Of a DNA stretch of 64,000 bases, positions 3,420 to 63,738 are shown piece after piece. The position numbers were made by a program, and so were the translations under genes. The stretch spans positions 132,878-196,877 of the IMG/VR virus record IMGVR_UViG_3300030419_007641. One strand, 5' to 3'. Below the pieces are notes generated by a model. That model was not told the DNA's origin and searched no databases. It worked only from the letters and a program-made list of their open reading frames with translations. This DNA comes from a virus. Each line of letters opens with the position of its first letter. Position 1 is the stretch's first letter.

Positions 3420-3423
3420 TATT

Positions 3424-6544: not shown

Positions 6545-6552
6545 ATAATAAT

Positions 6553-6960: not shown

Positions 6961-6984
6961 CCTTTCTCTTAAATAGCAGTTGCT

Positions 6985-33958: not shown

Positions 33959-35749
33959 ATGCCAGGACCAGGACCTTCAACTTCACCAGACCAAAATCGT
34001 TCATATGTAACTAATGATGGGCGCGCCTCTACCTTTGGTAGGAATCTAGTTCAATATATTCAAAATAGACTTCCGTATGCAAATAACGTCGAGGATCAGT
34101 CGTTAAATCCAAAATATAAATTTTTTGCGAAAGCAGGAATGAGGCGCGCTGAAGCACTAGCCCGTGCATCTGTATCTTCTTCGAACCCTTATAATAATTT
34201 ACCTATTGGTGATTTTGGAAAAGATACTACATTTCAAGATGTCATGTACGCAAATGTACAGGATGACAAGGGAGGTAGATTAAGAGACTATAGAATAATG
34301 GCTGCTTATTCCGAAGTAGCTGATGCTTTAGATGAAATATGTGATGAAACTATAAATCCGGACGAATCTGGATATGTTGCTAAGCTTCAATTAAAAAATA
34401 CAGATCTCACAATTGCAGAAAAAAAGGAACTAGACGATGAATTTGATAAGTATATAACCTATTACGACTTAAAAAATAGGGGCTGGGAATATTTTAGGCA
34501 ATTGCTTGTTGAGGGTGAAGTTTTCTTTGAGCTTATTATTCATGAAGGGTATGTTGATGATGGTGTTCTTGGAGTTATTAATTTACCAGCAGAAATAATA
34601 GATCCCGTCTATAATAACATACAAAATATGCTCGTAAAGGGGTTCATTTATAGAAAGCCTATATTTACCCCAAATAACCCTGCCAAGGTAGAGAAAGTGG
34701 AATTTATTCCTATGGATCAAAATCAGATTGTATATATTAACTCCGGCGTGTATAATGATACTAAAAATTTCGTGGTGCCATTCTTAGAAAATGCCCGTCG
34801 CCCCTATAGGCAGCTGTCTTTAATTGAAGATGCAATTGTAATATATAGATTAGTAAGGGCTCCAGAACGACTGGTATTTAATATTGATGTAGGTAACATG
34901 TCACCACCGAAAGCTGAAGCATACTTAAAGAAACTTATTCAAAATTACTGGTCTAGAAAAACATTTGACCTTGATCAAAATGATGTGGTTAAAAAGTTTA
35001 ATCCGCAATCCATGCTTGATGCATTTTGGTTTGCAAAACGAGCAGGTCAAGATGCTTCTACTGTTAATCAGCTCGACGGTGCACAGAATTTAGGTGAACT
35101 TTCCGATCTAATGTACTTTATTAAGAAGCTTTACAGGGCTCTTAAGGTACCATCAGCTCGACTTGACCCAGAGCAGTCTGTAGAAGCCGGCGGCACTTCT
35201 ATTCTTAGAGAAGAATTAAAATTTGCAAGATTTGTTATTAGGCAGCAGGAACGATTTGCAGCTGGTATTAAGAGGGGATTTATTACACATCTTAAATTAA
35301 AAAAATTATTTGAAAAATTCGATCTGATAGAAACTAATATAGAGGTTGTATTTAATGTACCTACTAACTTTTTTGAATTAAGAGAAAGCCAGAGACTAGA
35401 ATTAAAATCTGGTGCATATACATCTATAGCTGCAGATTCATTTATATCTGCAACCTATGCGCAGAAAAAATATTTAGGCTGGAAAGATAGAGACATTTTA
35501 GCTAACCGAGAGTTTTTGAGAAAAGATGCTGAACTAGGATGGGAGCTAGCTCAAATAGGAGCAGCTGGCCCAGCATGGAAAGAACAAGCAATCGCCGGTG
35601 AGCTAGCAGCTGGAGAAGAAGGAGCCGTTGACATGGGCGGTGAAGGAGGAGGAGGGGGTATACCAGACTTTGGTGGTGGTCCCGCTGATGTAGGTGGTGA
35701 AGAAGTAGAAGTAGAAGCCGAGACAGAAGTAGAAGCTCCTGTAGAATAA
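33959..35749 (+). CDS. 20: Portal vertex protein (gp20-like)
   Basis: 596 residues. RIMAAYSEVADALDEICDETINP is the conserved gp20 N-terminal helix, WEYFRQLLVEGEVFFELI follows, and LSDLMYFIKKLYRALKVPSARLDPEQ with ILREELKFARFVIRQQERFA is the strongest portal signature. The portal dodecamer starts prohead assembly and is the DNA channel. The C-terminal 50 residues are Gly- and Glu-rich (low complexity), beyond the T4 length. First large gene of the head block. Confidence 0.93.
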   Translation: MPGPGPSTSPDQNRSYVTNDGRASTFGRNLVQYIQNRLPYANNVEDQSLNPKYKFFAKAGMRRAEALARASVSSSNPYNNLPIGDFGKDTTFQDVMYANVQDDKGGRLRDYRIMAAYSEVADALDEICDETINPDESGYVAKLQLKNTDLTIAEKKELDDEFDKYITYYDLKNRGWEYFRQLLVEGEVFFELIIHEGYVDDGVLGVINLPAEIIDPVYNNIQNMLVKGFIYRKPIFTPNNPAKVEKVEFIPMDQNQIVYINSGVYNDTKNFVVPFLENARRPYRQLSLIEDAIVIYRLVRAPERLVFNIDVGNMSPPKAEAYLKKLIQNYWSRKTFDLDQNDVVKKFNPQSMLDAFWFAKRAGQDASTVNQLDGAQNLGELSDLMYFIKKLYRALKVPSARLDPEQSVEAGGTSILREELKFARFVIRQQERFAAGIKRGFITHLKLKKLFEKFDLIETNIEVVFNVPTNFFELRESQRLELKSGAYTSIAADSFISATYAQKKYLGWKDRDILANREFLRKDAELGWELAQIGAAGPAWKEQAIAGELAAGEEGAVDMGGEGGGGGIPDFGGGPADVGGEEVEVEAETEVEAPVE

Positions 35750-39587: not shown

Positions 39588-41114
39588 ATGAATAACAAAC
39601 CACAATCATTTATCGATAGAGATAGAGCAGACTTACTTCTTGAGAAGTGGGCACCTGTTCTTGACTATTCTTCTGATAGTGTTAAGCCCATTGAGGACGA
39701 TCATACCCGTTTAAATACTGCCATGCTTCTTGAGAACCAAGAAAAATGGTGTATTGAGGAAGGATCAACTGCAGGAGCAACTCCTGGAGGTTCTTTCGGT
39801 AACGGTGCTACTGTTGGTGGTGTATATAACCCCATTACCAACGATGTAAACTCCAGTGACTCTTATGCCACTGGTGATGCCCGTCTTCCAAAAGTGCTTA
39901 TTCCGATGATTCGTCGTACGTTCCCTGAGCTTATCACCAATGAAATCGTTGGTGTCCAGCCTATGTCAGGTCCTGTTGGACTTGCATTTGCCCTTCGTTA
40001 TGCTTATCAGTCCGAAAACTTAGGTACCGGTACTGATGGCACTACAACTCGCGATAGCAATACCGGTGCAGGAAATATTCCTAACACCCAAGCTACGTTA
40101 GATGAGTATAACGGAGCAGAAGGACTTCCCGCTGATGAACTTGGTTATCAATTGCTTGATACCCGGTTCACCGGTTCATCCTCTACGAGGTTGTCCGGTG
40201 CTGCAGACTGGTACTTTGCAGCACAAGATCAAGGTGTAGCTCAGATTCTTTCCGCTTTTGAGATTACTGGTAACATTCCTCAGGTTGAGGTTAAGTTCGA
40301 GAAAACAGCAGTTGAGGCCGGCACACGCCGTCTTGGCGCACGCTGGTCTGTCGAGCTTGAGCAAGACCTTAAGAACATGAATGGTATTGATATTGACGCC
40401 GAGATCACAAACGCTATGTCGTATGAGATTCAAGCTGAGATCGACCGTGAAATGCTCATGAGAATGATCCAGGCAGCTCTTGGTCAGGAAGGAACCGCCG
40501 GCTATTCTACATGGTCACCTGCTTCTGCAGATGGTCGTTGGATGGTTGAGCGTAATAGGGACTTTTATCAGCGTCTTATCATTGAAGCCAATCGCATTGC
40601 CGTACGTAACAGACGTGGAGCTGCTAACTTTGTTGTTGCTACTCCTCGTGTTTGCGCCATCCTTGAGATGCTCCCTGAATTCCAGTGGGTACCTGTACAA
40701 GGTGACGTAAATACTCAGCCTGTGGGTATTGCAAAGGTTGGTTCGCTTGGTGGAAGATTTAACGTTTACCGTGATACCAGAACTGAAGTACAGGGGAGTC
40801 CTAGTTATAACTCGCCAAGTTCAGAGGCATATTCTAGAGGAAGTGGAGGTGCACTCACCACTACTGGAATCGAGTATGCACTTCTTGGCTACAAGGGCCC
40901 TGAGTTCTACGATACTGGTATCATTTATTGTCCTTACATTCCTGTCATGGTACAGAGAACCATCGGTCCAAACGATTTTGCGCCACGCGTTGGCTTGCTT
41001 ACTCGTTATGGTGTTGTTGACAACATCTTTGGAGCGCATCTCTACTACCATGTCATTATTGTTCAGGGACTCGGTATCGCGTTCACTCCAGCTTCTCAGT
41101 CGGTGTACTTCTAA
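39588..41114 (+). CDS. 23: Major capsid protein (gp23-like)
   Basis: 508 residues. ARLPKVLIPMIRRTFPELITNEIVGVQPMSGPVGLAFALRYAY is the best-known gp23 segment, and the C-terminal YKGPEFYDTGIIYCPYIPVM and TRYGV are also standard. Residues 47-50 (LLE then N) give a gp21 cleavage site that would release the first 49 residues. Codons are noticeably richer in G/C than in neighbours, as expected for a highly expressed gene. It has a good Shine-Dalgarno and is followed by a strong terminator. Confidence 0.97.
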   Translation: MNNKPQSFIDRDRADLLLEKWAPVLDYSSDSVKPIEDDHTRLNTAMLLENQEKWCIEEGSTAGATPGGSFGNGATVGGVYNPITNDVNSSDSYATGDARLPKVLIPMIRRTFPELITNEIVGVQPMSGPVGLAFALRYAYQSENLGTGTDGTTTRDSNTGAGNIPNTQATLDEYNGAEGLPADELGYQLLDTRFTGSSSTRLSGAADWYFAAQDQGVAQILSAFEITGNIPQVEVKFEKTAVEAGTRRLGARWSVELEQDLKNMNGIDIDAEITNAMSYEIQAEIDREMLMRMIQAALGQEGTAGYSTWSPASADGRWMVERNRDFYQRLIIEANRIAVRNRRGAANFVVATPRVCAILEMLPEFQWVPVQGDVNTQPVGIAKVGSLGGRFNVYRDTRTEVQGSPSYNSPSSEAYSRGSGGALTTTGIEYALLGYKGPEFYDTGIIYCPYIPVMVQRTIGPNDFAPRVGLLTRYGVVDNIFGAHLYYHVIIVQGLGIAFTPASQSVYF

Positions 41115-41784: not shown

Positions 41785-42057
41785 TTAATCGTCAGTAGTC
41801 TGAATCCAATCATCTGGAAGCTCTTCTAGCAATGCGCTAGTCTCTGCACCTGTCAAGAGATTTCTATAATCTCTATCCGGGTCATCTGTAAAGATATGTA
41901 AAGCAGCACGTGGATTAGTATCCGTTTCCTCTACTATAACACCCCATATATATCTGGAACCATTTGGATCTCCTTTGTGATATGCGAGACCCTCATCAAT
42001 TCCAGCTTGTTCACTGCGAGCTAACGCATCAGCTTCGTTGTTATATAATAAGTACAT
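41785..42057 (-). CDS. Small fibre-associated hypothetical protein
   Basis: 90 residues, acidic. MYLLYNNEADALARSEQAG at the start and a tryptophan near the end match small proteins coded after tail fibres in T4-like marine phages. Its start overlaps the upstream fibre stop by 1 base (TAATG). It could be a fibre chaperone or assembly factor, which is inference. Confidence 0.5.
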   Translation of the reverse strand: MYLLYNNEADALARSEQAGIDEGLAYHKGDPNGSRYIWGVIVEETDTNPRAALHIFTDDPDRDYRNLLTGAETSALLEELPDDWIQTTDD

Positions 42058-43013
42058 TAGAATCGATTATAAAATTGGTTTAGAGCATCGGAGGATGCAC
42101 CAGATACAGGTCTTTGATCCGTGGGCCACCATACTACTTCATTAACATAGCCCGACATAGAATTTGATGAACCTGAATATCTTGCAAATAGCCGAGCTCC
42201 ATATTGATCATTATCACCTACAGTACCAGCAGCTTCTTCATTATTTAAAAGAAATACAGATCTGGTGCCATTCCAAACTGCAAACCAAATTTTACTGCCT
42301 GCTGTTTTATTAGAGTCTACAATAAGAGTGTAATCACTACCCCCCGCATATATTCCTGAATCATCATTATTAAAGAAACTACCAAGAATATTACGTGTAC
42401 TAGAAGATGTACCTTCCCACCAATATTTGTTACCTCCTGATCCAGCGGAAGTATCTGCACCTACAACTGAAATGCTGTTCGGATGGGCTATTGTACCCCA
42501 TTGAGCAACATCCATTGGGTCTTGAGATAAATAAAGAGCCGGGGTGCCTTGATCCTTCCCCTCACTGGCAGCTGCACCATAACTTAATTTCCCGTTATAT
42601 ATTGCTCGAGGCTGATAAGAAGTTACAGATTGTTCAGCATTACGACCATTACCACTCTGATCATACCATATCTTCATGTACGCACTTGAAGTTGAGATGC
42701 TATCGGGATCATCATAACCGCTACTGTCGCAAAACTCACCTAAGTTTGTTGCATTAGAGCCGCTAGAAAAGTTATCAACCGGTGAATCTAAGGAATACCC
42801 CATCCTGGCATCAAAATGTACATCTGCTTCTTCATTATCTGCCGATCGACGCAGTCTAAGTATGGGTCCGCTATATCCTGTGCGTAATCTACGTAAAGAG
42901 AAGGCTACATCAGCTCCAGGAAATTGATCAAGTAAAAACCCGGCTGCACCTGGAGTTTTATTTGCAGATGTGACACTCATCCCCGTGGTCATATTTGTTG
43001 GAGATAAAAACAT
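42057..43013 (-). CDS. Tail fibre/adhesin with arabinofuranosidase B-like domain
   Basis: 318 residues. DVAFSLRRLRTGYSGPILRLRRSADN, then VHFDA, IWYDQSGNGRNAEQ and YQPRAIYNGKL match the opening of the AbfB catalytic/LamG-like domain (slRrLrsaYsGpairvRRssDn, YDQSGngndl, QP.iv.nG). This jelly-roll domain in phages is usually a carbohydrate-binding fibre module. The catalytic acidic pair cannot be assigned with confidence. Translationally coupled (TAATG) to the 1346-residue fibre, so it is a likely receptor-binding partner. Confidence 0.65.
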   Translation of the reverse strand: MFLSPTNMTTGMSVTSANKTPGAAGFLLDQFPGADVAFSLRRLRTGYSGPILRLRRSADNEEADVHFDARMGYSLDSPVDNFSSGSNATNLGEFCDSSGYDDPDSISTSSAYMKIWYDQSGNGRNAEQSVTSYQPRAIYNGKLSYGAAASEGKDQGTPALYLSQDPMDVAQWGTIAHPNSISVVGADTSAGSGGNKYWWEGTSSSTRNILGSFFNNDDSGIYAGGSDYTLIVDSNKTAGSKIWFAVWNGTRSVFLLNNEEAAGTVGDNDQYGARLFARYSGSSNSMSGYVNEVVWWPTDQRPVSGASSDALNQFYNRF

Positions 43014-46000
43014 TAGCTAGGTAGTGAGAAGTTATACTGCACCCCGCCATATAAATTAGTACCATCACTCCAGAAAGTTAATATATCCACGGCATTAGCA
43101 CCTGTTGTTAATGTAGGTGCAACACCACCTGGCCAATGATATGCATATCCTGTTGACAAAGTTCTTGACCCGGTACCATCTTGTACTACTTTAAGGATAT
43201 AAGACCCTTGTGCCAAATTAGATGGGTTATGTAAACACCTATTACCGCCTAATGTTACGGTAGCGGCATGCCCTTTGCATGCGTCCCATGTCATTTCCGC
43301 TTCATCTGTTATAGTGGTGTAATTAGTCTGTGCAGTTTGAATAAGATTTTTAGAGCTTATAGTACCAGCAACAGAAAATGTTGCCCTAGTAGTATCACAT
43401 GTCCTAATACCCACACAATTATTAGTCCCGATACTAATTGCAGCGTAATTATTTTGTGTAATAGCTACAGGGTAATCATTACCGGTCCCCATTACCATGG
43501 CGTTAGCTGGAATTCTCAATGAAGTAGCAGCATTACCATTCAAGAATACATTACCACATACACCACCACCGTCTTGTATTAACTTAATTTTTGGGTTATC
43601 ACTCTCACCTGAGTTATCTGTATCAGCTTCTAATACAAGAGCTACATCGCCCTTGCTCTTAATATGTAAACCAGCTTCGTTATCTCCAGCTGTAGGAAGT
43701 AAGAAATGATTTGAATCATTAGAAATACCGACTTTGGATCCTAAGTAACTCCATTCACTACCAGGCGCGCCTACAACACCAGCGCTGAGCGTACCAAGTG
43801 CGCTTATATTACCAGCTACAGTAAGTGCTTCTAATGGTGCATTTGTACCAATACCAACACTACCACCAAAGTAACTTGTACCTGCTACCGCAGCTGCACT
43901 AAGGCCTCCTGTAGCGCTTACGTCCCCTACAATCGATAATTTAGCATCGGGAGTTGTATCACCAAGCCCCAAATTACCACTCCCCATTATTACTGTCGGG
44001 TTTGTACCATAGTTAGTAACACATACAAGTTTAGTTGTGTCAGCAACTGCACTACCAGCCGCGTGACCACCTATCTTACCTTGAATATTAATAGCAGGTG
44101 ATGATGTGGTATCGGCTCTTAAACCACCTAGTAAATTTAAACCTATACAATTTGAGCAGTAATTATAACCAATTACAGTAGGGTCTAGCTTATTATTACC
44201 ACTATTATTATTACCAATACCTACGTAACTTGAAGCATCGTCAGAAACTTGAAATTGTGCGATTAGTTCTGAAGTTGATGCTGTTGCAGGTGCAATAATA
44301 TGAAGAGGGTAACCTGGTCTATGTGTACCAATACCAACACTGCCGCCAAAGTAACTAGTACCTGCTACCGCAGCTGCACTCAGACCTTTTGTAGCGCTTA
44401 TATCACCTACAATGGATAATTTAGCCCCGGGTCTATTAATACCTACGCCGACGTTACCATTAAAGTAGTTACTTTCTACATTACATGTGGAACTTAGCCC
44501 TCCATTAAGGACACACACACCCTTATCCTGTATTATTGTACAATTGGAATCACTGGTAATAAATTTAGGCGAGCAAGTGCAACTCGAAAAGCATCCACAT
44601 GCACCTTTAACATTATAAGTTGCGCATACATTACCACTTCCATCCATGCAAGAATATCCGGTCTTAACCACTGCCCCGCAAACGCAGGTACTACCGCATA
44701 TACACGGACTGGCAACCTGTGTACTAAAACAACCATAAGAACCGCAGACATTACCACTTCCATCAAAGCAAGAATACCCATCAGTAACACATGCACCGCA
44801 GACGCAGCTACCGCCATATACTATACCACTACCTGCGCAAATATTACCAGAACTGCAGAACAACCCACCACATACAGAAGTTTTACCGCATACATCAATT
44901 CCACATAATTTGTCCGCACTCGCGGTGCCTGCTACAGTAAGTGCTTGACTAGGCCTAATAGTCCCAATACCAACATTACCACCGAAATAGCTATTACCTG
45001 CTACTGCAGCTGCACTAAGACCTTTTGTAGCACTTATACTACCAACTACTGATAAGTCACCACCAATATCATGCCCATCAGAAGTAATAGTTCCTGTAAC
45101 ATCAACCCCGGTGCTTTGTGTTTTAAGCTTCTCGCTACCGTCATAATATAACTGAACACATGAGTTGGCGCGAATTGCGACCCCGCCCTCCCCGCTCTTT
45201 CCTTGCAAGTAAATGTTACCATCTGGTTCTCTAATAATTAAATTACCACCCGTTCCACCTTGTATATATGATGCACCGTCTGCATTACATTTCCACATTG
45301 ATAAATCCGAGTCGTTTCCCAATGCTAAAACACAATCATCTCCTAAATGAAGTGATTCTGTTGGTCTATTAATACCGATACCAACATTATCAGAAAAATA
45401 AATATTACCTCCTGTTGCGCTTAGACCATCATTAGCGCTAAGCTTTCCAGAGATAGTAAAATCACCATTGATATCAAACCCAGTTAATTCATATTGCGTA
45501 ACATCAATAACTTTAACAAATGCAGAGGTTGCATCTATTGTTGTAGCGCATAATGTACCAAAAATAGTTGCATCTTGTGCTGTTAATCCCTGAGTAGAAA
45601 CAGAAGTGGTGGTAGTTCCTCCACCCCCTCCACTACTAGTCCCAAATATATCAAGTAAATTTGTACCACCTGATAAAATATTACCTACAACATTCAGCTC
45701 CCCGTTCATCGTACCCCCTGCAGCAAACTGCGTCGCTACCGAACCACCCCCGCCCATCATTTCTACAGATTTTTTAAGAGATAATATTTGCTGATTAAAA
45801 GATTGATTAAGATTGGTTTGTATATCTCTTTGAATTTTTTTAGGATCGATTTTTATATTCTTTTCGCCATATTTTTCTATAACAATACCAGGTGTATCAT
45901 TTTTAATCTGAGAAATTGTATGTAAAAGATCTGTTTTGCTTTCCTCAATAAGGTCATATACAGCTTTTTTATTTTCCTCTGATCGGTATAGCACCTCAGA

Positions 46001-47053
46001 TTCAAAACTTTCTTTAACTAAAGATATTTTTTCATCATAGTAATCCTTAACTTTTTGTTCAGCATTTATAAATTTAGTATCAATAGACTCCTTTAAAATA
46101 GATATGTCGCTATCGATATCCTTTTTAACATTTCCTATTCTACTTAAGGCTCTATTAACACCTTTAATGATACTATCATTAATTTCTGTGTTTACTTTTT
46201 CTAAAGTAACAATATCGCTTTTAATCTCTGTAATTTTTTTGTTTTGAGATTCTTGCTTTTTATCTACTTTTGATTGAAGATAATTCTCAATTGATTCAGC
46301 ACTAGACGTGGAACGCTCTTCTATTAAATCTGTTATCTTTGTAACGTATATATCTTTGGTTAAAGATTCAACCTTTTCTTGTAATGCTTCTGTGGATTTT
46401 TTATAATTGCTTTCAATATTTAAAGTAAAATCAGAAGTGTATTTTTCAATACTATTATTAATATAGTCTGATAATTTTTCTTCTGTTTCTTCATTATAAT
46501 TAAATATTTGAGCTTTTGTATCTTCTGTAATATTTAAAAATTCTTCTATTAGAGATTTATGAGCTTCTTTTAACAGTGTGTTAAATTTTTCTTCTCTAAG
46601 CTTTAGTTCACTATCAGCTTCTTGAAGTTTAAGCTCTTTAATTTTTTCTGCATACTCCTTGGCAGCGAGTCTAGCATTTTTTATATCTTTAAGAATATCG
46701 TCTTTTTTCTCTAAAACTATATCCTCAACTACCTCTTCTTGCTCAAATATACTAAGATCATGCTCAGGTATATCTGTCGACCCTACAAAAGTAGTATTAT
46801 TTTCATTAAATAATACCTCAAATTTACCCTCTCTAAGGACAAATGGTGCAGAATATTCCTTACTACCTTTTACTACTGGTATATTTACAACAGGCGCGCC
46901 TTTATATTGGCTCCTTTTTTCTGCAATAAACTTACTACCATTTATCTCAAATTCATAAACATCGAAGAAAACTTCTTCTAAACTTTCAACGGTTAAGATG
47001 TTAAGATCTGAGCTAGTAAAGGTAGGTTCTACCTTTTCGCTAAACAGTCTCAT
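43013..47053 (-). CDS. Long tail fibre protein with coiled-coil stalk and Cys-rich segment
   Basis: 1346 residues. Residues 1-120 form a virion-attachment-like head; 125-430 are a long Lys/Glu coiled coil; after a Gly-rich hinge (near 435-475) come repeats of the type LSVVGSISATKGLSAAAVAG followed by YFGGNVGIGTxRP, at least six times, typical of trimeric phage fibres. Residues about 714-865 hold roughly two dozen cysteines. The C-terminus (YILKVVQDGTGSRTLS and GTNLYGGVQYNFS) is a common fibre end. It reads against the capsid operon and has an ATTAAATA box on the minus strand at 47064-47071. Confidence 0.85.
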   Translation of the reverse strand: MRLFSEKVEPTFTSSDLNILTVESLEEVFFDVYEFEINGSKFIAEKRSQYKGAPVVNIPVVKGSKEYSAPFVLREGKFEVLFNENNTTFVGSTDIPEHDLSIFEQEEVVEDIVLEKKDDILKDIKNARLAAKEYAEKIKELKLQEADSELKLREEKFNTLLKEAHKSLIEEFLNITEDTKAQIFNYNEETEEKLSDYINNSIEKYTSDFTLNIESNYKKSTEALQEKVESLTKDIYVTKITDLIEERSTSSAESIENYLQSKVDKKQESQNKKITEIKSDIVTLEKVNTEINDSIIKGVNRALSRIGNVKKDIDSDISILKESIDTKFINAEQKVKDYYDEKISLVKESFESEVLYRSEENKKAVYDLIEESKTDLLHTISQIKNDTPGIVIEKYGEKNIKIDPKKIQRDIQTNLNQSFNQQILSLKKSVEMMGGGGSVATQFAAGGTMNGELNVVGNILSGGTNLLDIFGTSSGGGGGTTTTSVSTQGLTAQDATIFGTLCATTIDATSAFVKVIDVTQYELTGFDINGDFTISGKLSANDGLSATGGNIYFSDNVGIGINRPTESLHLGDDCVLALGNDSDLSMWKCNADGASYIQGGTGGNLIIREPDGNIYLQGKSGEGGVAIRANSCVQLYYDGSEKLKTQSTGVDVTGTITSDGHDIGGDLSVVGSISATKGLSAAAVAGNSYFGGNVGIGTIRPSQALTVAGTASADKLCGIDVCGKTSVCGGLFCSSGNICAGSGIVYGGSCVCGACVTDGYSCFDGSGNVCGSYGCFSTQVASPCICGSTCVCGAVVKTGYSCMDGSGNVCATYNVKGACGCFSSCTCSPKFITSDSNCTIIQDKGVCVLNGGLSSTCNVESNYFNGNVGVGINRPGAKLSIVGDISATKGLSAAAVAGTSYFGGSVGIGTHRPGYPLHIIAPATASTSELIAQFQVSDDASSYVGIGNNNSGNNKLDPTVIGYNYCSNCIGLNLLGGLRADTTSSPAINIQGKIGGHAAGSAVADTTKLVCVTNYGTNPTVIMGSGNLGLGDTTPDAKLSIVGDVSATGGLSAAAVAGTSYFGGSVGIGTNAPLEALTVAGNISALGTLSAGVVGAPGSEWSYLGSKVGISNDSNHFLLPTAGDNEAGLHIKSKGDVALVLEADTDNSGESDNPKIKLIQDGGGVCGNVFLNGNAATSLRIPANAMVMGTGNDYPVAITQNNYAAISIGTNNCVGIRTCDTTRATFSVAGTISSKNLIQTAQTNYTTITDEAEMTWDACKGHAATVTLGGNRCLHNPSNLAQGSYILKVVQDGTGSRTLSTGYAYHWPGGVAPTLTTGANAVDILTFWSDGTNLYGGVQYNFSLPS
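43730..45420 (-). repeat. Fibre repeat array (GNVGIGTxRP units)
   Basis: Within the long fibre gene, units of about 60-130 codons repeat the core SATKGLSAAAVAG, then SYFGGSVGIGT and a short variable strand. At least six copies are seen at the protein level and they are recognisable in the DNA (for example near 43850, 44340 and 44980). They probably arose by duplication and could recombine to change fibre length. Confidence 0.6.
44460..44910 (-). other. Cysteine-rich segment of the tail fibre
   Basis: About 150 codons carry some 24 cysteines in motifs such as VCGGLFC, SCVCGAC, DGYSCFDGSGNVC and KTGYSCMDGSGNVC, with two near-identical copies of the DGSGNVC block. The rest of the fibre has few cysteines. 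Disulfides or metal binding are possible; no named domain was recognised. Confidence 0.65.
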
Positions 47054-47091: not shown

Positions 47092-48027
47092 TCACTGTTT
47101 TGGAGTTTTTATATGTGGTACATCAACTTCACTTAAAGTATGATGTAGCAACTTTTTATGAGATGCGCGCTCTGGATTAATGTCAATACCACCTCTACGA
47201 GCGTATAGACAACGTACATTTAGTTCTTCCGGATTAATTGTATCCTTTATACGCTTATAGATAGCTTCACAAATTTCTTCATGAAAGTGACACTCATCTC
47301 TGAAAGAAACAATATATTGCAACAGTGAAATAGGGTCTACAGTATTTTTACCTTTTATATAAATATAAACATCTCCCCAATCAGGTTGCGAAGTAACACG
47401 GCAATTAGACTTAAGTAAAGCGCTATGATAATAAACTTTATCTGAAGGAGCATCCTCTATCTCTTGAAGCAAGTTTGGATCTTCTGAATATACAGAAAAT
47501 TTCACCTCATCGACAGGGTATTCATCTTCTAATGTAATATAATTAGGAGTACAATCTACACTATGCATCCACTCCAGTTTTGCGTTAAACATATTAACAT
47601 CACCTAAAACTCGAGCATTACTATGCACTTTAACTAGTACTTTAGTTTCAAGGAGCGCACTTAAATCAGATGCTGCCATTTTGCTAATTTGATCTAAAAC
47701 CTCTTCTGCACTATCACCCAGTTTAGTCATGTTAAATGAGTTAAAATACAACTTAATAGACTTAGATTCAACAATATACTTACTATCACAAGAATATACA
47801 ATCTTAGCTACACCAACTACCGGTAGTCCATTATTAGTAAGAGCTGATATTTCATATCCATTCCATGTATCATTACCGACAAAAGGTAGGTTATTATCTT
47901 CTAATCCTAGATGTGTCCTATTTGATTGACGAGGCTCTCGTACAAGAAGACCCGGATCATATGATGATTTATACTCAGACGTTTGTCCTAAATGTTTACT
48001 AACATTACTATTATCAAGTTTAGCCAT
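47092..48027 (-). CDS. queF: NADPH-dependent 7-cyano-7-deazaguanine reductase (QueF)
   Basis: 311 residues, the bimodular long form. YDPGLLVREPR, PFVGNDTWNGYE, VESKSIKLYFNSFN (NADPH-binding ESKS), LLKSNCRVTSQPDWGDV with catalytic Cys209 and Asp216 spaced as in E. coli, SFRDECHFHEEICEAI and YARRGGIDINPERAS are all in place. It reduces preQ0 to preQ1. With FolE, QueD and QueE in the same genome and a TGT-like protein at 55.4 kb, its likely purpose is a preQ1-type base for DNA or tRNA. QueC, the step to preQ0, is not in the window and may come from host or elsewhere. Confidence 0.93.
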   Translation of the reverse strand: MAKLDNSNVSKHLGQTSEYKSSYDPGLLVREPRQSNRTHLGLEDNNLPFVGNDTWNGYEISALTNNGLPVVGVAKIVYSCDSKYIVESKSIKLYFNSFNMTKLGDSAEEVLDQISKMAASDLSALLETKVLVKVHSNARVLGDVNMFNAKLEWMHSVDCTPNYITLEDEYPVDEVKFSVYSEDPNLLQEIEDAPSDKVYYHSALLKSNCRVTSQPDWGDVYIYIKGKNTVDPISLLQYIVSFRDECHFHEEICEAIYKRIKDTINPEELNVRCLYARRGGIDINPERASHKKLLHHTLSEVDVPHIKTPKQ

Positions 48028-48625: not shown

Positions 48626-49162
48626 TTATAAGTGTTCCTTAAGAAATTCCATCCAAGCATCAAAAGACGTCTTTCTTAATGTATCATAAGTTTTATCTAT
48701 ATTGAGGACATCACGCGTTCTTGCAGATTTTTCTACTATAATCTCACCTGCATCAACCTCTGCTACTACTTTATGAACCACACTACCAATTTTAGCGTAT
48801 GAAGCTATATTTTTCCATGCACGTTTTTGCGGATCTTTACCTTTTAACTCAGGATATTTTGTTATAAGTCCCGGGTGCCCATTGTATATATTATACATCT
48901 TGCACTTATCCGGGGGCACTATTCTTAACCACCCATTTAAGGTAATGAGAGTATCTTTTTTATCGAATTGTATATCCTCTAAGATATCCAATGTTTTTGC
49001 TTCATCATTATTAACCCTAAAATCTACTTCTATATTCGGATTAACCTTGTCCAAATTAGCATTGGTAATAACAAAATCCGGTTTTCTATTTAACTTTGTA
49101 GATAGGTCAACTATCTCAGATCCTGTTTGTGAAAACAAAGCTACCCAATTTTTATATCTCAT
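48626..49162 (-). CDS. Formyltransferase family protein (PurN-like)
   Basis: 178 residues. LITLNGWLRIVP, then YNIYNGHPGLITKYPELKGKDP (the N-x-H-P-x-L motif) and IGSVVHKVVAEVDAGEII (the VHxVxxxxDxG motif with catalytic Asp) define a 10-formyltetrahydrofolate-dependent transferase. It is shorter than PurN and the 5' part is divergent. It could formylate GAR in purine synthesis or an amino sugar; the sugar cassette makes the latter worth testing. Overlaps the upstream membrane protein by 1 base. Confidence 0.75.
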   Translation of the reverse strand: MRYKNWVALFSQTGSEIVDLSTKLNRKPDFVITNANLDKVNPNIEVDFRVNNDEAKTLDILEDIQFDKKDTLITLNGWLRIVPPDKCKMYNIYNGHPGLITKYPELKGKDPQKRAWKNIASYAKIGSVVHKVVAEVDAGEIIVEKSARTRDVLNIDKTYDTLRKTSFDAWMEFLKEHL

Positions 49163-52285: not shown

Positions 52286-53174
52286 TTTATTATTCTTACT
52301 ATTTCTAACACCTGCTTTTGGTGAAATAGGTAATATCACCTCTCAAACTAGAGCTGCGCAAATCACTAGAAAGGGCGATAAAATATTAACTGAAGTTAAT
52401 ACGCCTGTGGAGATGCGCGACTTAATTCAAACTCTTAAAGGTAGGGCTAATATTAAATTTGTTGATGATACTAAAGTAAGTGTCACAGAATACTCAAAGT
52501 TATTAATAGATGAATTTGTTTATAATCCGGAAAAGAAGACCGGTAAACTTTCCCTTAAAGCCGCTTTAGGTACTATTAGATATTCTTCTGGTAAGATCGC
52601 AAAAAATTCTAGACAAAATGTAAAAATTAAATCGCCTACTGCTTCTGTATCTGTCAGAGGCACAGATTTTACTATGAATGTGCAAGAAGATGGTGCTACT
52701 AGTTTTTTACTTCTCCCTTCTACAGATACAGATGGAAGCTCATACGTCGGGTCTATAGATGTTTCTACACTGGGTGGTACAGTTACTTTAGATCAAGCAT
52801 ATGAAGCAACTACAGTAACAACAGCAATTGCACCGCCATCGCCTCCGCAGGTTATACAGGAAGATGGAGCAGTAAATGGTAAAAAACAAGACGTGAAAAA
52901 GGATAATAACGAAGATAAAAAGCCTACAGATGAAAAAGAGGAGGATAAATTCGACGAAATTAAAATAAAGAAAAAAGAAACACAGATTATGAACACATTT
53001 TTAAAAATGAATGATGGTCGATATGTTTTCTTTTCTAAAGATAAAGACAATATGATTTCTCTCATAGTTGAGGATGGGAGCAATGTAACAGTAAATTATG
53101 ATAACAGGGGCAGCATTATTAACGCAAAATTTAACTCAGGTAATAATGTTTTATTTAACATTAAGCAACAATGA
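52245..53174 (+). CDS. FecR-domain periplasmic/secreted protein
   Basis: 309 residues from the ATG at 52245, which gives a signal peptide (SSLLFLLFLTPAFG); the longer frame from 52137 has none at its start. GDKILTEVNTPVEMRDLIQTLKG, IKFVDDTKVSVTEYSKLLIDEFVY, GTIRYSSGKIAK and IKSPTASVSVRGTDFTMNV are the FecR beta-domain. A Pro/Lys/Glu linker and a C-terminal beta segment follow. Such FecR proteins often precede CHASE2 cyclases in bacteria. It overlaps the curlin gene by 41 bases and the cyclase by 4 (ATGA). Confidence 0.85.
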   Translation: MVLRKPVVKAVTSSLLFLLFLTPAFGEIGNITSQTRAAQITRKGDKILTEVNTPVEMRDLIQTLKGRANIKFVDDTKVSVTEYSKLLIDEFVYNPEKKTGKLSLKAALGTIRYSSGKIAKNSRQNVKIKSPTASVSVRGTDFTMNVQEDGATSFLLLPSTDTDGSSYVGSIDVSTLGGTVTLDQAYEATTVTTAIAPPSPPQVIQEDGAVNGKKQDVKKDNNEDKKPTDEKEEDKFDEIKIKKKETQIMNTFLKMNDGRYVFFSKDKDNMISLIVEDGSNVTVNYDNRGSIINAKFNSGNNVLFNIKQQ

Positions 53175-55210
53175 AAACGTTTAATATTAAAAACTATATT
53201 ATATGCATATTTTTTACTATGCTATTGGTTACATTAAGAATGGTTGACCCTTTCTTTATCGAAACATTAAGATTAAAAGGTATAGATTATTATCAAACAA
53301 AACAAGAAAAGGTATTATCAGAAAATATTTCTATTATAGAAATAGATGAAGCAAGTCTAGATAAAAATGGGCAATGGCCATGGAGTAGAGAAATAATAGC
53401 TAAAGGTGTTGAAAAGGCCTTTGCTAATGAAGCGCAATTAGTAGTTATTCCAATACTATTTGCTGAAAAAGATCGTTTGGGTGGCGATGAATATTTTACT
53501 AATGTACTAAGTGAGGCACCGGTTATTATAGGGCAGTCAGCTAGTATAAAGGGTAAGGGAAAGCCTGTCCCTAGGGGACTTGCTAATATAGGAGAAAGTT
53601 TAGATGGGTGGCTATATGATTATCCGGAGGCAATTGGACCTGTAAAAGAACTAGGGGAGCATGCTGCCGGTGTTGGTATGATATTAACGGCGCCGGAATT
53701 AGATGGTGTTGTAAGAAGACTGCCTCTAATAGTACATGTACAAGGAGAAGCCTACCCAACAATACCTTTAGAAGTAATAAGGCTATTTGCTGGCGAGCAA
53801 TCCTATCAGGCTAAAGTTGGTCTGGGTGGTGTAGAGGCTGTTAGAGTGCCTGGATTTGATCCTATTATTACAGATGCAAACTCTAGAGTGTGGTTAAACT
53901 ACAAATACGAATTTGATAAAGTATCATTTGCAGATGAAGATTGGTCAGCTGTAAGAGGTAAAATTGCCGTAATAGCATTAACAGGTGAAGGGCTTGCTAA
54001 TACAATTGCTACTTCAACTGGTGTAAAATATGGGCACGAAGTAACTAGTTCAGCGTTGCAAATGTTAATTGACGAATCTAGATTACAAAGACCTGTTGAA
54101 TCAACAGTATATGAAATATTAATAACAGCAGCATTTTGCTCTTTGCTTATTATAGGAGCTTTATGGTTATCGTACATAGCCAGCTTAGCTATAATCTCTG
54201 TTTCATTGTTTGCTGGGCCTTATATTGGTAACTGGTTGTTTAATAGTAATGGGTGGTTAATTGATTATACTTGGCCAGCTGCTTGTATTTTTATAACCTG
54301 GTCTGTGGCTACATTTATAAGATTTGTAACTGAAAGTAAATCAAAGCAACAAATTAAGAAACAATTTGAACATTATCTTGCTCCGCCTATAGTTAAGCTA
54401 TTGCAAAAAGATCCATCGTTGCTCAGACTAGGTGGAGAAACAAGAGAGCTATCTATACTGTTTAGCGATCTAAGAGGGTTTACAACAATAAGCGAACACT
54501 TTAAAGCAAACCCTCAAGGGCTTACAGAATTAGTTAACAAGTACCTAACTCCTATGACAGGATGTGTAATACAGCATAATGGTACAGTAGATAAATTTAT
54601 TGGTGACGCATTAATGGCATTCTGGAATGCTCCTCTTGATGTTGAGGATCACAAAGTACATTGTATTAATTGCGGGTTAGAAATGTTTGATTTATTAAAA
54701 AAGCTTAATAAAGAGATAAAGGATCAAGAACTACCAGAGCTGAAAATTGGAGTAGGTATTAATTCCGGAGATGTAGTTGTAGGTAACATGGGATCAGAGC
54801 AAAGATTTGACTATACATGTTTAGGTGATGCAGTAAATCTTTCCTCGAGGCTAGAGGGCCAGACTAAGGAATATGGAGTAGGTCTTATCGCAGGCCAAGG
54901 AACAGTACAAGGAATAGAAGATAAATTTAATTTTATTGAATTAGATATGATAGCAGTTAAAGGTAAAAAGGAAGGCGTGAGGATATTTACTGTACTAGAA
55001 GATGGTATAGACGTAGCACATCATAATAAATTTTTGGAGTTTTATCGGACCCGTAATTGGTCAGGCGCATTAAACTTATTGGAATTAAACATTATGACAT
55101 ATCCTAATCTCGAAACATATTATAGTATGATGAGAGAAAGGATATATCTCCTAGAAAAGTCTAATTTAGATAGCGACTGGGATACAATTTATAGAGCTAC
55201 TTCGAAGTAA
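53171..55210 (+). CDS. CHASE2-domain class III adenylate/guanylate cyclase
   Basis: 679 residues. One N-terminal membrane span (about 8-24), a periplasmic CHASE2 sensor (about 35-300, with ISIIEIDEASLDKNGQWPWSR), three spans (about 313-385), then a class III cyclase domain (about 425-600). Metal Asp433 (FSDLRGFT) and Asp479, adenine-type Lys475 (VDKFIGDA), Thr549 (DYTCLGDA) and the transition-state Asn556 and Arg560 (VNLSSR) are all present, so catalysis is likely; ATP is favoured over GTP. It would raise cAMP in the infected cell in response to a periplasmic signal. A full cyclase in a phage is rare in my experience. Confidence 0.92.
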   Translation: MKTFNIKNYIICIFFTMLLVTLRMVDPFFIETLRLKGIDYYQTKQEKVLSENISIIEIDEASLDKNGQWPWSREIIAKGVEKAFANEAQLVVIPILFAEKDRLGGDEYFTNVLSEAPVIIGQSASIKGKGKPVPRGLANIGESLDGWLYDYPEAIGPVKELGEHAAGVGMILTAPELDGVVRRLPLIVHVQGEAYPTIPLEVIRLFAGEQSYQAKVGLGGVEAVRVPGFDPIITDANSRVWLNYKYEFDKVSFADEDWSAVRGKIAVIALTGEGLANTIATSTGVKYGHEVTSSALQMLIDESRLQRPVESTVYEILITAAFCSLLIIGALWLSYIASLAIISVSLFAGPYIGNWLFNSNGWLIDYTWPAACIFITWSVATFIRFVTESKSKQQIKKQFEHYLAPPIVKLLQKDPSLLRLGGETRELSILFSDLRGFTTISEHFKANPQGLTELVNKYLTPMTGCVIQHNGTVDKFIGDALMAFWNAPLDVEDHKVHCINCGLEMFDLLKKLNKEIKDQELPELKIGVGINSGDVVVGNMGSEQRFDYTCLGDAVNLSSRLEGQTKEYGVGLIAGQGTVQGIEDKFNFIELDMIAVKGKKEGVRIFTVLEDGIDVAHHNKFLEFYRTRNWSGALNLLELNIMTYPNLETYYSMMRERIYLLEKSNLDSDWDTIYRATSK

Positions 55211-57092: not shown

Positions 57093-59870
57093 ATGGCCAA
57101 CGGGTATCAACAAAACCAGCCCTCCCCGGGACGCGCTCCACGTAGAGCAGTCGGCTCAGAACCGCAGCCTGTAGGAAGCGATAAATCTTCAGAAGCAAAC
57201 GAGCATCACGAATATAGAAATAAAGCTGTAATAAATCAAAGAGGAGCTACTTTAGAAATAAATAATTCAACTGACCGCGAAGAGCTTAAGTTATCTCAGT
57301 ACTCGGGCTCTAACATAGCATTAAACAATTTAGTTAATAGTGAATTAGCAAGTAACAATAAGCAAACTAAGGTTGTTAATGATAAATTTGAGTCTGTAGG
57401 TAATGATAGAAATGTATACGTAGGTAAAGATAAAGTAGAGCGAGTAGTAGAAAATACTTATATCTTAAGGGGATTCGAAAATGATGATCAACTTATAGCT
57501 GCTGAAAACTGGAAGGGTACTTATACTGGAATAGCTAGAGATAACTCTCAATTTAGAATACAGAGAGGGGGATCTAGTTTTCCTAACGGCGTGGTTACAC
57601 CACTAATATATGAACAAAATCCAGATTTTATTAATAACCCCGCGCCGTGGGCCGGTCCTAATGACCAACAACAACAGCAACTACCTCAGGAAGTTATAGG
57701 TCGTGCTCCAAATCCAACCCTTAATCAATATAGATGGAGTGTAAATAATATATTTGGAGGGTTCGGAAAACCAGCTCAGCCGAATGCTGATCCACCAGAA
57801 AATCAACGATGCGCACCTGCAGTTAAAAAGGGTGTTGACGAAGTTAAAGATTTTGAATTTGTTCGACCCGGGTTAAGAGTGGGCCCCCGTAGAAATCGGG
57901 TAGACGAATTATCTGTCCTAGGCGGCTCCGGAGGAGTTGGTGGTGATGCAAATTTCGAAAATCCTTATGGTTCTAGAAATAGAGGGGTAATGACATTTGG
58001 TCCTAATTGGTCAGCTTCTACGGAAGGCGGTAGATGGAATCCTACGCCTAATTTTACATTAATTCCTGGTGATCCAAATGGATTTACCCAACAGCAACAA
58101 GCTATTGTTAATATACAAAATACTTTAAACAACTATGAATTAGACATGGGGAATGGTGGCGATGAAATTGATTTTGTAAAGCGTCATAAAATAGAAACAA
58201 TCGGAGCCGCTACTAATGACTACCCTTCTATTCGTGTAGATGAATTCGGTAGATCGCAACCAGTAGGAGTAGATGTTGGAAGATATACAACATATGTCAA
58301 CATGGACACAATTCCTCATGTCGAGCAAGTGAATAATGACATGACGTTTCCTGTTGGTAATTATACATTAAATGTTGGCAACAGGTACAACATGCTAGTA
58401 GGATCCGGTGGTGTGCAATTAAAAACCTCGGGGGCTGTTGAAATAGGAGGCACAACTGCTAATCTTGCCGCTAATAAAGTAACAGTACAGGGGTGCTCAG
58501 GTGTACATATAGGTAGTGAAAGCGTTGTAGAAATTCAATCTAAGAAAAGTATCTCTTTAAGATCTGACAGGCAAGTATTAATTTCACCGAGCTTGGGAAT
58601 ACAAAATGATTTAAAGGTGGGTGGTGCGTCGTATGTAGAGGGAGAAGCATATGTTCAGCATGTAACTGCGCCTATAGAGGTACAAGAAACGCATGCTACA
58701 GAATTATTTGGAAAGTTTAATACTGATTGTCCGCGGGAACTTCAAATAGGAGAAGCCGCAATTGATATGGTTAAGTTTGCTAATCAGCTGAACTTTATAC
58801 TTGATGAACCGTTGCAGGTAAATCAAAGTCACGGTGAAGGAGAGGTTATATGCTATTATCCTGTATTTGCACTTAAAGAGGATGATTTAATTAAAACATA
58901 TCCCCATTCTCATAACTTTAACAACCTACCGTTAAGATTATGTCAAGGAAATGAAGATGTTAGGAAATTTGCAATGTGTGAAGGTATAAATGTAGATGCC
59001 TCACAAACAAGAGCTTTACCAATTGTTGATGAGAAAAAGGACCCGTGGCGTACAACGGGACCGACAGGAGAAATAGGTGAAAATAACGAAATTATTTATC
59101 CATGTAAACCCACTCGTGTACCGTCGCTCTCTTGCGAGCCTCCTGAGCCGCCTACGTGTCCAGATATTCCTGATTGTTCAGGTGAAACGCAATCAGAGCC
59201 TACGGTACCTATTACATCCTCTGTAGAAGCATTAAATAAGCAAGAGGAACAAATACGGCGACAAGAAAGCGCAAGGATGAAATTAAATCCTGGTAACCCA
59301 GACTTTATAAATTTTGATGATGTACTGGAAGCACGTAAAGAGCGCGCATGTGCTCGGGCTTGTAGAAAGCCCCCTGTAGAACTTTTTGACGGGGATGCTC
59401 AACAGTTTCCGGACATCGCAAATGCTCTCATTGCACGTGACGGTGGTGATTGTGGTCAACAATTACAGCAGGTTTGTGGTTGTGGTGGTGGTAATGGTCC
59501 GGATGGTAACCCATGTCCTATTGAACCTGGACGTGTACCGGATCAAAATTTTCCAAACGAGGCATTCAAGAATAAAGAAGGTGGCTGGGAACCCGGTAAT
59601 GCAAAAGAGATTGACAATGACTTAGGATTGCTTGAAGATGGTGACTTTGAATTTGTCGATGCAGATGGAAACACGCAAACCGGAATGGAAGGTCTTAGAT
59701 TGAAATGGGACTCAATTAACAGGCAGCGTCAAGCAGATAATAAGCCTCTAATTAATTTCCCAGAAATTTCTAATCCGGACGCAGGCGGTGAAAATATAGC
59801 TGCAGGGCCGTGGGGACCAAATGCTCCAGAGAACCCGTTAGTTGATGCTGGTATTGGGCCGGTTAATTAA
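57093..59870 (+). CDS. Baseplate spike/hub protein (gp5 C-terminal/VgrG-like)
   Basis: 925 residues. The start is disordered (QNQPSPGRAPRRAVGS). NNSTDREELKLSQYSGSNIALNN, VVNDKFESVGNDRNVYVGKDKVERV and, later, YTLNVGNRYNMLVGSGGVQLKTSGAVEIGG with SVVEIQSKKSISLRSDRQVLI are repeating short strands typical of the gp5/VgrG beta-prism spike. Residues 640-800 are Cys- and Pro-rich (CEPPEPPTCPDIPDCSGE), and may hold disulfides or metal. It punctures the outer membrane by family analogy. The end overlaps clpP by 8 bases. Confidence 0.75.
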   Translation: MANGYQQNQPSPGRAPRRAVGSEPQPVGSDKSSEANEHHEYRNKAVINQRGATLEINNSTDREELKLSQYSGSNIALNNLVNSELASNNKQTKVVNDKFESVGNDRNVYVGKDKVERVVENTYILRGFENDDQLIAAENWKGTYTGIARDNSQFRIQRGGSSFPNGVVTPLIYEQNPDFINNPAPWAGPNDQQQQQLPQEVIGRAPNPTLNQYRWSVNNIFGGFGKPAQPNADPPENQRCAPAVKKGVDEVKDFEFVRPGLRVGPRRNRVDELSVLGGSGGVGGDANFENPYGSRNRGVMTFGPNWSASTEGGRWNPTPNFTLIPGDPNGFTQQQQAIVNIQNTLNNYELDMGNGGDEIDFVKRHKIETIGAATNDYPSIRVDEFGRSQPVGVDVGRYTTYVNMDTIPHVEQVNNDMTFPVGNYTLNVGNRYNMLVGSGGVQLKTSGAVEIGGTTANLAANKVTVQGCSGVHIGSESVVEIQSKKSISLRSDRQVLISPSLGIQNDLKVGGASYVEGEAYVQHVTAPIEVQETHATELFGKFNTDCPRELQIGEAAIDMVKFANQLNFILDEPLQVNQSHGEGEVICYYPVFALKEDDLIKTYPHSHNFNNLPLRLCQGNEDVRKFAMCEGINVDASQTRALPIVDEKKDPWRTTGPTGEIGENNEIIYPCKPTRVPSLSCEPPEPPTCPDIPDCSGETQSEPTVPITSSVEALNKQEEQIRRQESARMKLNPGNPDFINFDDVLEARKERACARACRKPPVELFDGDAQQFPDIANALIARDGGDCGQQLQQVCGCGGGNGPDGNPCPIEPGRVPDQNFPNEAFKNKEGGWEPGNAKEIDNDLGLLEDGDFEFVDADGNTQTGMEGLRLKWDSINRQRQADNKPLINFPEISNPDAGGENIAAGPWGPNAPENPLVDAGIGPVN

Positions 59871-60480
59871 TTTCATCAACCAGCCCTAATTCTAAACAAG
59901 TATTGCTATCAAACCAGAGATCATGCTTCAAAATCTCATTAAGCTTCTTCATAGGCACTTTTGTATATTCTTTATACACGGCTTTGATTGTATCCATTAA
60001 ATGCTTATTATTTTCCATGTCATCTTCTAGTTCAGTATATTTACCATAACTAGTTGCTGAAAGCTGGTGGATAAGCATCTTAGAGTATTTTCCAATATAC
60101 CTCTTGCTACATGCTACTGAAATTAGTGTAGCAGCAGAAGCAGCTGCACCCTCAATATATGAATGAACTTCACTATTAAGATTTCTTATTGCATCAACTG
60201 TAGCCAGCCCAGCAAAAAGAGACCCACCATAAGAATTAATATGCAGATTAATATGAGGTTTAACATCAAGAAACAGATTTGTGACAGAAAGCTTTTTATC
60301 CATTTCATATAACGCTGCATTTAATTCTAAAGCATTTGATTCAGTAATATCACCATAGAAATATAGATTGTTTTCAACTATTTTAGTAACACCGCCGCTA
60401 CCAGCCGGGCTAGCATTAATAGTAACTATTTGTTGCGTTTCTTGCTCTCGTTCTTCTTCGTTTAAGTATTTCCATTTCAT
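59863..60480 (-). CDS. clpP: ClpP-like serine protease
   Basis: About 205 residues from the ATG at 60480; the upstream extension to 60588 lies within nrdA. IVENNLYFYGDITESNA, INLHINSYGGSLFAGLATVDAI, SYIEGAAASAATLISVAC (Ser in the AAS position), SKMLIHQLSA (catalytic His) and HDLWFDSNTCLELGLVDEI (Asp region) are the ClpP fold. Phage ClpP may process virion proteins or alter host proteolysis with host ClpA/X. It is the last gene of the nrdB-nrdA-clpP operon, 4 bases after nrdA. Confidence 0.85.
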   Translation of the reverse strand: MKWKYLNEEEREQETQQIVTINASPAGSGGVTKIVENNLYFYGDITESNALELNAALYEMDKKLSVTNLFLDVKPHINLHINSYGGSLFAGLATVDAIRNLNSEVHSYIEGAAASAATLISVACSKRYIGKYSKMLIHQLSATSYGKYTELEDDMENNKHLMDTIKAVYKEYTKVPMKKLNEILKHDLWFDSNTCLELGLVDEIN

Positions 60481-60484
60481 AATA

Positions 60485-62131
60485 TCAGCCTTGACACGAA
60501 GCACAATTAAGAATATTTCTTGCCAGCTCTTGTGCTGGATTGGCGCTTCTCTGATAGTATAGTGACTTAATTCCACTTTGCCAGGCATAAATTAAAAGTT
60601 CATTAACTTCTCTTGGTTTTGTTTCCGGCGGGATCATTAAGTTTAGGGACTGGCCTTGATCGATATATTTTTGTCGCATTGCAGCTTGAATAATAATTTC
60701 CTTTTGTGAAATTTCACCGAAAGTCTTAAACACGTCTTTTTCTTCTTCTGTTAAAAATTTTAGATGTTGTACACTGCCCCCGTGGTTCAAGATACTCTTC
60801 CAAGTAGTTGCATTATCCTTATCTCTTTCTTTTAAAAGTTTTACAAGGTACGGGTTACGATATGTAAATTTACCTTTAGCTAAATCCTTAGTAAAATAGT
60901 TTGAATTAAGAGGTTCGATAGAAGGGGAGACCTGACCTAAAATAAATGAGCTGCTAGTAGTAGGAGCTATAGCCATCGTTGTGGCATTTCGTATACCATA
61001 TCCTTTACATAGCTCTGGCTCACCAAATAACTCTGCTAATTCTCTTGTAGCATTATCACATCTCTCTTTAATTAAGACAAACACTTCTTGATTTATACCT
61101 TTAGCCATTAACGACTCAAATGCAATCATTTTAGACTGGAGGTACGTGTGCCATCCTAATACTCCAACTCCTAATGCTCTCTGTCTTACAGCAAAGTTAT
61201 GTGGAGCTTCCATATACTTTACACCTTCAGTCTTCTTAATAAAATCAGACATTACAGCATCCAAGAAGTAAACTAAAGTCTCAATAGCATCTGTTTCCTT
61301 AATTTCGTCCCACATTGCTAAATTAAGAGAAGATAAATCACAAACAAATGATTCATCTTCATCAGAAGATAAAAATATCTCAGTACATAAATTGCTAGCG
61401 TTTATTCGCTTGCCTTGGTCTTTATAAACTTGCGGTGCATTATTGTTAGCAGTATCAGTCCAAAAAATATAAGGGTATCCTGTTTCATATCTCTTTTTAA
61501 TTATTTTTGCCCACAATTTACGCTTCTCTTTATTACCATCAACAACAGCTTGCATCCATTCATCTGTTATACATACACCGAAAGATAGATCTTGTACCGG
61601 ATCGCCTTCCGATCTAATTCTCATAAACTCCTCGATATCGGGATGTTCAACAGGTAAATAAGCTGCAAAAGAACCTCTGCGTACGTTACTCTGTGAAACA
61701 TAATTTATAAGAGCATCAAATACAGTAAGTTGATGATGTACACCTGTTGCAGCTCCTCCAGATGATATTGGAGCTCCGCGGTGTCTTACTGCACCAAAGT
61801 AGCCAGATGTACCGCCACCTACCTTTGACATTGTTCCAACTTCAGCGACCTTAGTAAGAATTTTTTCCATATCGTCGGGAATATAACTACCAAAACAAGA
61901 AATTGGTAATCCTCTTTCTTTACCAAAATTTGACCAAATAGGAGAAGACAAAGAATAAAAGCCCCGAGCCATATAGTCGGTAAACTTGTCTGCAAATCCT
62001 TTTATTTTAAGATATTTTTCAGCGGTTTTAGCAATAGTTTCAATTCTATCTTCTGGGGACTCACCCTCTTCTAAATAACCCCTTTTTAGAAATTTCTTCG
62101 AATCTGCATTTAACCAACTATAATTTTTCAT
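60485..62131 (-). CDS. nrdA: Ribonucleotide reductase class Ia alpha subunit
   Basis: 548 residues, short because no N-terminal ATP-cone is present. LPISCFGS (Cys79, first redox Cys), INASNLCTEIFL (radical-site Asn-Cys-Glu), ALGVGVLGWHTYLQ, TSSSFILGQVSPSIEP, and the radical-transfer Tyr pair in SLYYQRSAN are all present; the tail NCASCQG holds the CxxC reductant. It makes dNDPs for phage DNA. The lack of the ATP-cone suggests no dATP feedback inhibition, useful for a phage. Two bases after nrdB. Confidence 0.95.
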   Translation of the reverse strand: MKNYSWLNADSKKFLKRGYLEEGESPEDRIETIAKTAEKYLKIKGFADKFTDYMARGFYSLSSPIWSNFGKERGLPISCFGSYIPDDMEKILTKVAEVGTMSKVGGGTSGYFGAVRHRGAPISSGGAATGVHHQLTVFDALINYVSQSNVRRGSFAAYLPVEHPDIEEFMRIRSEGDPVQDLSFGVCITDEWMQAVVDGNKEKRKLWAKIIKKRYETGYPYIFWTDTANNNAPQVYKDQGKRINASNLCTEIFLSSDEDESFVCDLSSLNLAMWDEIKETDAIETLVYFLDAVMSDFIKKTEGVKYMEAPHNFAVRQRALGVGVLGWHTYLQSKMIAFESLMAKGINQEVFVLIKERCDNATRELAELFGEPELCKGYGIRNATTMAIAPTTSSSFILGQVSPSIEPLNSNYFTKDLAKGKFTYRNPYLVKLLKERDKDNATTWKSILNHGGSVQHLKFLTEEEKDVFKTFGEISQKEIIIQAAMRQKYIDQGQSLNLMIPPETKPREVNELLIYAWQSGIKSLYYQRSANPAQELARNILNCASCQG

Positions 62132-62133
62132 AC

Positions 62134-63117: not shown

Positions 63118-63138
63118 TATCGCTTTACCTAGTGTGAG

Positions 63139-63724: not shown

Positions 63725-63738
63725 TGCTATATTATAAT

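Follow-up and report, generated by a model that had tools for sequence, protein, structure and literature searches.

The DNA analysed here, in the following called the window, comprises 64,000 nucleotides and corresponds to bases 132,878–196,877 of a 196,877-base IMG/VR virus record. Matches to gp23 (PF07068, E = 3.5e-89) at 39588–41114 and to the gp20 portal protein (PF07230, E = 6e-101) at 33959–35749 identify the phage as T4-like. Identity of its gp23 to those of cultured phages reaches about 34% at most among the matches listed, which include marine virus AG-345-E02, P-SSM5 and P-SSM2; the uncultured phage is probably marine. Among the structural genes, a single uninterrupted open reading frame of 1346 residues on the minus strand (43013–47053) carries a cysteine-dense module. 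The neighbouring gene at 42057–43013 (minus strand) encodes a cysteine-poor protein of 318 residues, probably a virion structural protein or adhesin, that matches PHROG 10356 (virion structural protein, E = 5e-7). On the other side, the fibre gene is adjoined by a gene for the 7-cyano-7-deazaguanine reductase QueF (47092–48027, minus strand), which has both Pfam halves of this enzyme and a PHROG assignment as GTP cyclohydrolase.

The 1346-residue protein had been taken for a tail fibre from its letters alone, and similarity searches bear this out. They returned 51 phage records, many of them annotated as tail fibre, and the alignment with fibres of marine cyanophages, a pelagiphage and roseophages is piecewise. 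In a library of solved structures, residues 602–681 matched the fibre gp28 of P-SCSP1u (E = 1.4e-11). PHROG 9017 (tail fiber protein) matched residues 1223–1336 (E = 0.0011), and by tblastn the C-terminal fibre domain (residues 1226–1335; 43049–43378, minus strand) has counterparts in Phage C72C1 (48.6%) and MEP301 (51.9%). The module is flanked by ordinary cysteine-poor fibre repeats, as stated in the preliminary description: copies of the direct repeat D1, of the type GNVGIGTxRPxxxLxVxGxISATKGLSAAAVAG, lie on its N-terminal (44951–45095) and C-terminal side (44315–44459), with a third copy at 43835–43979, all on the minus strand. Outside the module, the protein has 12 cysteines in about 1195 residues.

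Modules alignable with marine T4-like and T7-like phage fibres (S-CAM9, S-TIM5, P-SSM2 and P-SCSP1u gp28) flank the cysteine segment, including the block LYYDxSxKLxTxSTGVxVTG. For the P-SCSP1u fibre, only the N-terminal part has been resolved experimentally, so that the aligned distal part is without experimental structure (PMC10575957). The inspected cultured relatives have homologous fibres but no cysteine-dense stretch, with at most 3–4 cysteines per 100 residues.

The cysteine-dense segment at 44460–44910 is real, i.e., residues 715–865 contain 24 cysteines in 151 residues. The densest 150-residue stretch of the reading frame begins at residue 717, and the module proper, residues 717–857 (44483–44905, minus strand), holds all 24 cysteines in 141 residues, at positions 717, 722, 728, 733, 739, 750, 752, 755, 762, 770, 775, 784, 786, 790, 792, 802, 810, 819, 821, 825, 827, 838, 847 and 857. 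This corresponds to 16% cysteine, compared with 2.7% for the whole fibre and an average of 1.22% for long reading frames of the phage. The binomial chance of finding at least 24 cysteines in 151 residues is about 1e-19 to 1e-21, and every other stretch of any frame of 100 or more residues in the window has at most 10 cysteines per 150 residues.

The module is built from repeats. Residues 715–744 (KLCGIDVCGKTSVCGGLFCSSGNICAGSGI; 44822–44911, minus strand) form degenerate 11-residue repeats, with exact 11-residue spacing of cysteines 717/728/739/750 and 722/733. They are followed by two copies of a 40-residue unit, residues 741–780 (44714–44833) and 781–820 (44594–44713), and by a C-terminal part, residues 821–857 (44483–44593), all on the minus strand. 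The two units correspond to the DNA direct repeat D4 (start-to-start distance 120 nucleotides, 74% identity across 86 nucleotides); their proteins are identical at 20 of 40 positions (50%), with four cysteines aligned.

The gaps between cysteines include five CxC and one CxxC. CxC pairs, together with the shared sites that trimer axes can form, would suit a module that binds zinc, copper or an Fe-S cluster between chains; the preliminary description had considered a metal- or Fe-S-binding stalk. Yet the list of gaps has a single gap of 3, at variance with a ferredoxin-type CxxCxxCxxxC spacing, and a lone CxxC does not provide the paired knuckles of zinc ribbons or zinc fingers. No metal-binding family of Pfam or PHROG matched. 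A fixed metal site is also hard to reconcile with this single CxxC and with cysteines that shift and are replaceable between relatives (see below). A metal or Fe-S stalk is thus not supported, and we regard metal binding as quite improbable.

A protein search of IMG/VR found the module in two further contigs, L002 and L003, with best segments of 61–70%. Both encode it in frame and with mostly the same cysteines as the window, so the closest homologues do not lack them. Given the intact single frame and these two independent contigs, we excluded a reading-frame error that would have made the segment spurious. Over 50 codons, the window differs from the two contigs by 10–12 synonymous and 13–14 nonsynonymous changes. 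Upstream of the module, L003 and the window fibre share up to 93% identity. In L002 and L003, the module directly precedes another C-terminal domain (KSSGSFxIxHPLESKKDTHxLVHSFIEGPQADNIYSG); hence it occurs in varied fibre contexts.

With degenerate DNA patterns we collected further fibres containing the 11-residue repeat. A cleaner form, VCGTTSVCGAA or VCGTTSVCSPA, is present in the fibres of L041, L034, L037, L044, L019, L014, L046 and L098, and residues 715–744 of the window share the register of VCGTTSVCGAA repeats in L041, L037, L034 and L002. Of the motifs named initially, CxC stood up, occurring five times, but GxCxxG was a loose rendering of the true unit, [VI]C[GA][TS][TS]x[VIL]C[GS][AP]x. 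The most extended array lies in an open fibre frame of at least 3126 residues in L041 (4895–14274), with 249 cysteines and 59 matches to the repeat pattern, an obvious recent expansion. We set aside most of the 54 and 34 DNA-pattern matches as accidental hits in unrelated reading frames, and likewise several cysteine-rich translations that were antisense or out of frame; L112, too, appears to be accidental. The strict repeat pattern had no match among genomes of bacteria and archaea. Searches of cultured phages with tblastn left the module, L044, L098 and the second fibre described below unmatched, with a BLAST low-complexity filter that may mask such repeats.

The records behind L044, L004 and L049 carry cysteine-rich fibres and a gp23 with 78–86% identity to that of the window; in L002 and L003, a gene next to the fibre encodes a closely similar gp23. 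Because gp23 is nearly the same, many carriers belong to one uncultured T4-like clade, of which cysteine-rich fibre repeats are a recurrent trait. For L041, L098, L096 and L115, the records yielded no match to gp23; they may stem from other phages or represent fragments. The segment had been called unusual; this is true relative to cultured phages, but it is not unique, since it recurs in related environmental phages, which have an apparently undescribed set of such repeats in common.

The 11-residue period brings to mind a further fold. The beetle Tenebrio has an antifreeze protein with 12-residue coils, each with two paired cysteines, and a TxT ice face. At sequence level, the window resembles this protein in its short β repeat with two cysteines, i.e., in a spacing near that of a cysteine-laddered β-solenoid with intrachain disulfides closing each coil. 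It differs from the beetle consensus TCTxSxxCxxAx in its period of 11 and in having no TxT row, and one cysteine of the pair is often missing. AlphaFold2 monomer models of the window module and of the L041 repeats had pLDDT values of 36 and 40, too low for geometry. The L041 model placed strands at 11-residue intervals, as a solenoid would, but at unusably low confidence, and Foldseek found no significant match for it. A profile search of the PDB with the repeats gave ankyrin-type matches (E about 0.002 and higher), which were driven by composition and disregarded. We consider a solenoid of the beetle type highly improbable.

The same phage has a second cysteine-rich fibre outside the window (L107:13817–15997; G000:C1:53817–55997), with 726 residues and 40 cysteines (5.5%). 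The head of UspA1 is a trimeric left-handed β-roll. Residues 257–512 of the second fibre match this head (PDB 3pr7, E = 8e-21), in which the aligned stretch is without cysteine; the cysteine module of the window is not of the UspA1 type. In the 15-residue repeats of the second fibre, most cysteines occupy the variable positions that follow GGG or precede STI; among the repeats counted, none replaces the conserved Gly or Ile. Related proteins in L114, L115 and L116 have 46–94 cysteines, and in L117 and L118 a similar N-terminus is joined to cysteine-poor repeats. Compared with the second fibre, a copy with 96% identity shows 31 differences, among them two cysteines lost and one gained. The cysteine-rich trait is therefore not bound to one fold or gene.

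Cysteine turnover was also evident in the window fibre. Between the window and L002 and L003, 7 of 10 and 6 of 10 cysteine columns were conserved, compared with 19 of 26 and 20 of 27 other columns, i.e., cysteines fared no better than the rest. A stalk block without cysteine in S-TIM5 (KKLETTSTGIDVTG-type; KKLETT..TGIDVTG) aligns with the cysteine-bearing VKFCTCSSGSRTTGTHCATTC in L004 and L035. Together with the single gains and losses and the repeat expansion in L041, the lack of special conservation is what one would expect from near-neutral drift, with cysteines as small residues in a permissive repeat that spread via duplication and have no oxidation or binding function. Drift accounts less readily for cysteine contents of 5–9% in several fibres with different folds (the 11-residue stalk, the UspA1-like roll and parts adjacent to S74), for the inspected cultured relatives, which have the same modules and remain cysteine-poor, and for the anticorrelation of positions 5 and 7 described next. 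We judge drift to be somewhat unlikely.

Within the 11-residue repeat, positions 5 and 7 appear to exchange their cysteine. Among 53 non-seed repeats with cysteine at position 1, which are partly related, not independent and stem from pattern-seeded contigs, 24 have a cysteine at position 7 only, 13 at position 5 only, 14 at neither and two at both, i.e., exactly one in 37 of the 53 (Fisher p = 0.0018). A swap at a homologous site is seen in the window (SVCGG) and in L003 (CVRGA). When position 7 is not cysteine, it is mostly Arg, Tyr, Asn, Lys, Asp or Ser, not small and hydrophobic, which suggests that this position is on the solvent-facing side. The framework Val positions of the repeat are candidates for the core. 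Judged from these substitutions, the cysteines, mainly found at variable positions, are probably solvent-facing.

Exposed cysteines may act as free thiols in adhesion, either by thiol–disulfide exchange with host surface proteins or by binding of soft metals or other ligands, and density would then be what matters. Their placement at variable, probably exposed positions, their turnover one by one and their presence in two different fibres of one phage would all be compatible with such a role. However, fixed spacing and the exchange between positions 5 and 7 point to pairing and not to mere density, and free thiols are unlikely to persist in oxic water. Adhesion by free thiols hence appears unlikely to us.

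Our best explanation is that the fibre contains an otherwise ordinary β-structured and probably trimeric stalk, enriched in cysteines that form redundant disulfides outside the host and thereby stiffen it; we hold this tentatively, as a serious candidate just short of probable. The 11-residue repeat would keep its usual Val/Gly/Thr framework and bear its cysteines at positions 1 and 7 (or 5), which would face outward. Synthesis in the reducing cytoplasm would leave the fibre with free thiols. Once lysis has released it into oxygenated water, cysteines that are neighbours on adjacent strands or chains could be oxidised to redundant disulfides, which would stiffen the stalk and shield it from proteases. 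Because such a set is redundant, a single cysteine could be lost, gained or shifted.

We favour redundant surface disulfides because they fit the periodicity, the one-of-two rule at positions 5 and 7 and the turnover. Support comes from the fixed 11-residue cysteine spacing here and in other fibre reading frames, from the second cysteine-rich fibre and the cysteine-rich fibres in relatives with a close gp23, and from stalk blocks that exist with and without cysteines. Cysteine columns that are not specially conserved and the two cysteines lost from the 96%-identical copy count against essential, fixed disulfides. Since searches of the phage record turned up neither thioredoxin nor glutaredoxin nor DsbA, a phage-encoded oxidation system gives no support. 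There is a precedent in the Agrobacterium phages Milano and 7-7-1, whose particles are documented to have extensive structural disulfide networks (PMC10811340, PMC12796354). The likeness lies in cysteine-enriched phage structural proteins, with fibres of 2.7% and 5.5% and a module of 16% cysteine in the present phage; for the window fibre, an extracellular disulfide network is plausible. As far as these texts describe it, the known network involves the sheath, tube, baseplate and capsid, where cysteine makes up about 2%, and no cysteine repeat of a fibre stalk (PMC10811340, PMC12796354). Our literature search, which lay mostly outside subscription journals, found no report of cysteine repeats in phage fibre stalks.

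If the cysteines pair, the change from reducing cytoplasm to oxidising water would be the trigger that hardens receptor-binding fibres. Disulfide armour of the Milano type would then extend to the fibre stalk, and pairing would suggest how long fibres persist in the environment. That a lineage of uncultured T4-like phages builds fibres in at least two β folds with a surface cysteine ladder, which either oxidises outside the host to give a covalently reinforced stalk or serves as a redox-sensitive adhesin, is possible but doubtful at present; if true, such redox-armoured receptor-binding fibres would be without a described counterpart in cultured phages. New as a feature are the cysteine-rich repeats; the underlying trimeric phage fibre is already known. 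The simple 11-residue repeat in the long, near-perfect arrays of L041 offers a testable model.

Further features of the window lie at higher position numbers than QueF. A formyltransferase-like protein of 178 residues (48626–49162, minus strand) has a weak PurN match under the cut-off (E = 2e-11). At 53171–55210 (plus strand), a protein of 679 residues combines CHASE2 (E = 4.6e-34) with an adenylate/guanylate cyclase catalytic domain (E = 9.9e-21), a sensor-cyclase architecture that is unusual for a T4-like phage. Positions 59860–63917 (about 4.1 kb) are 83% identical, in the same orientation, to bases 3374–7436 at the opposite end of the record, which points to either a diverged duplication near both record ends or a chimeric end.
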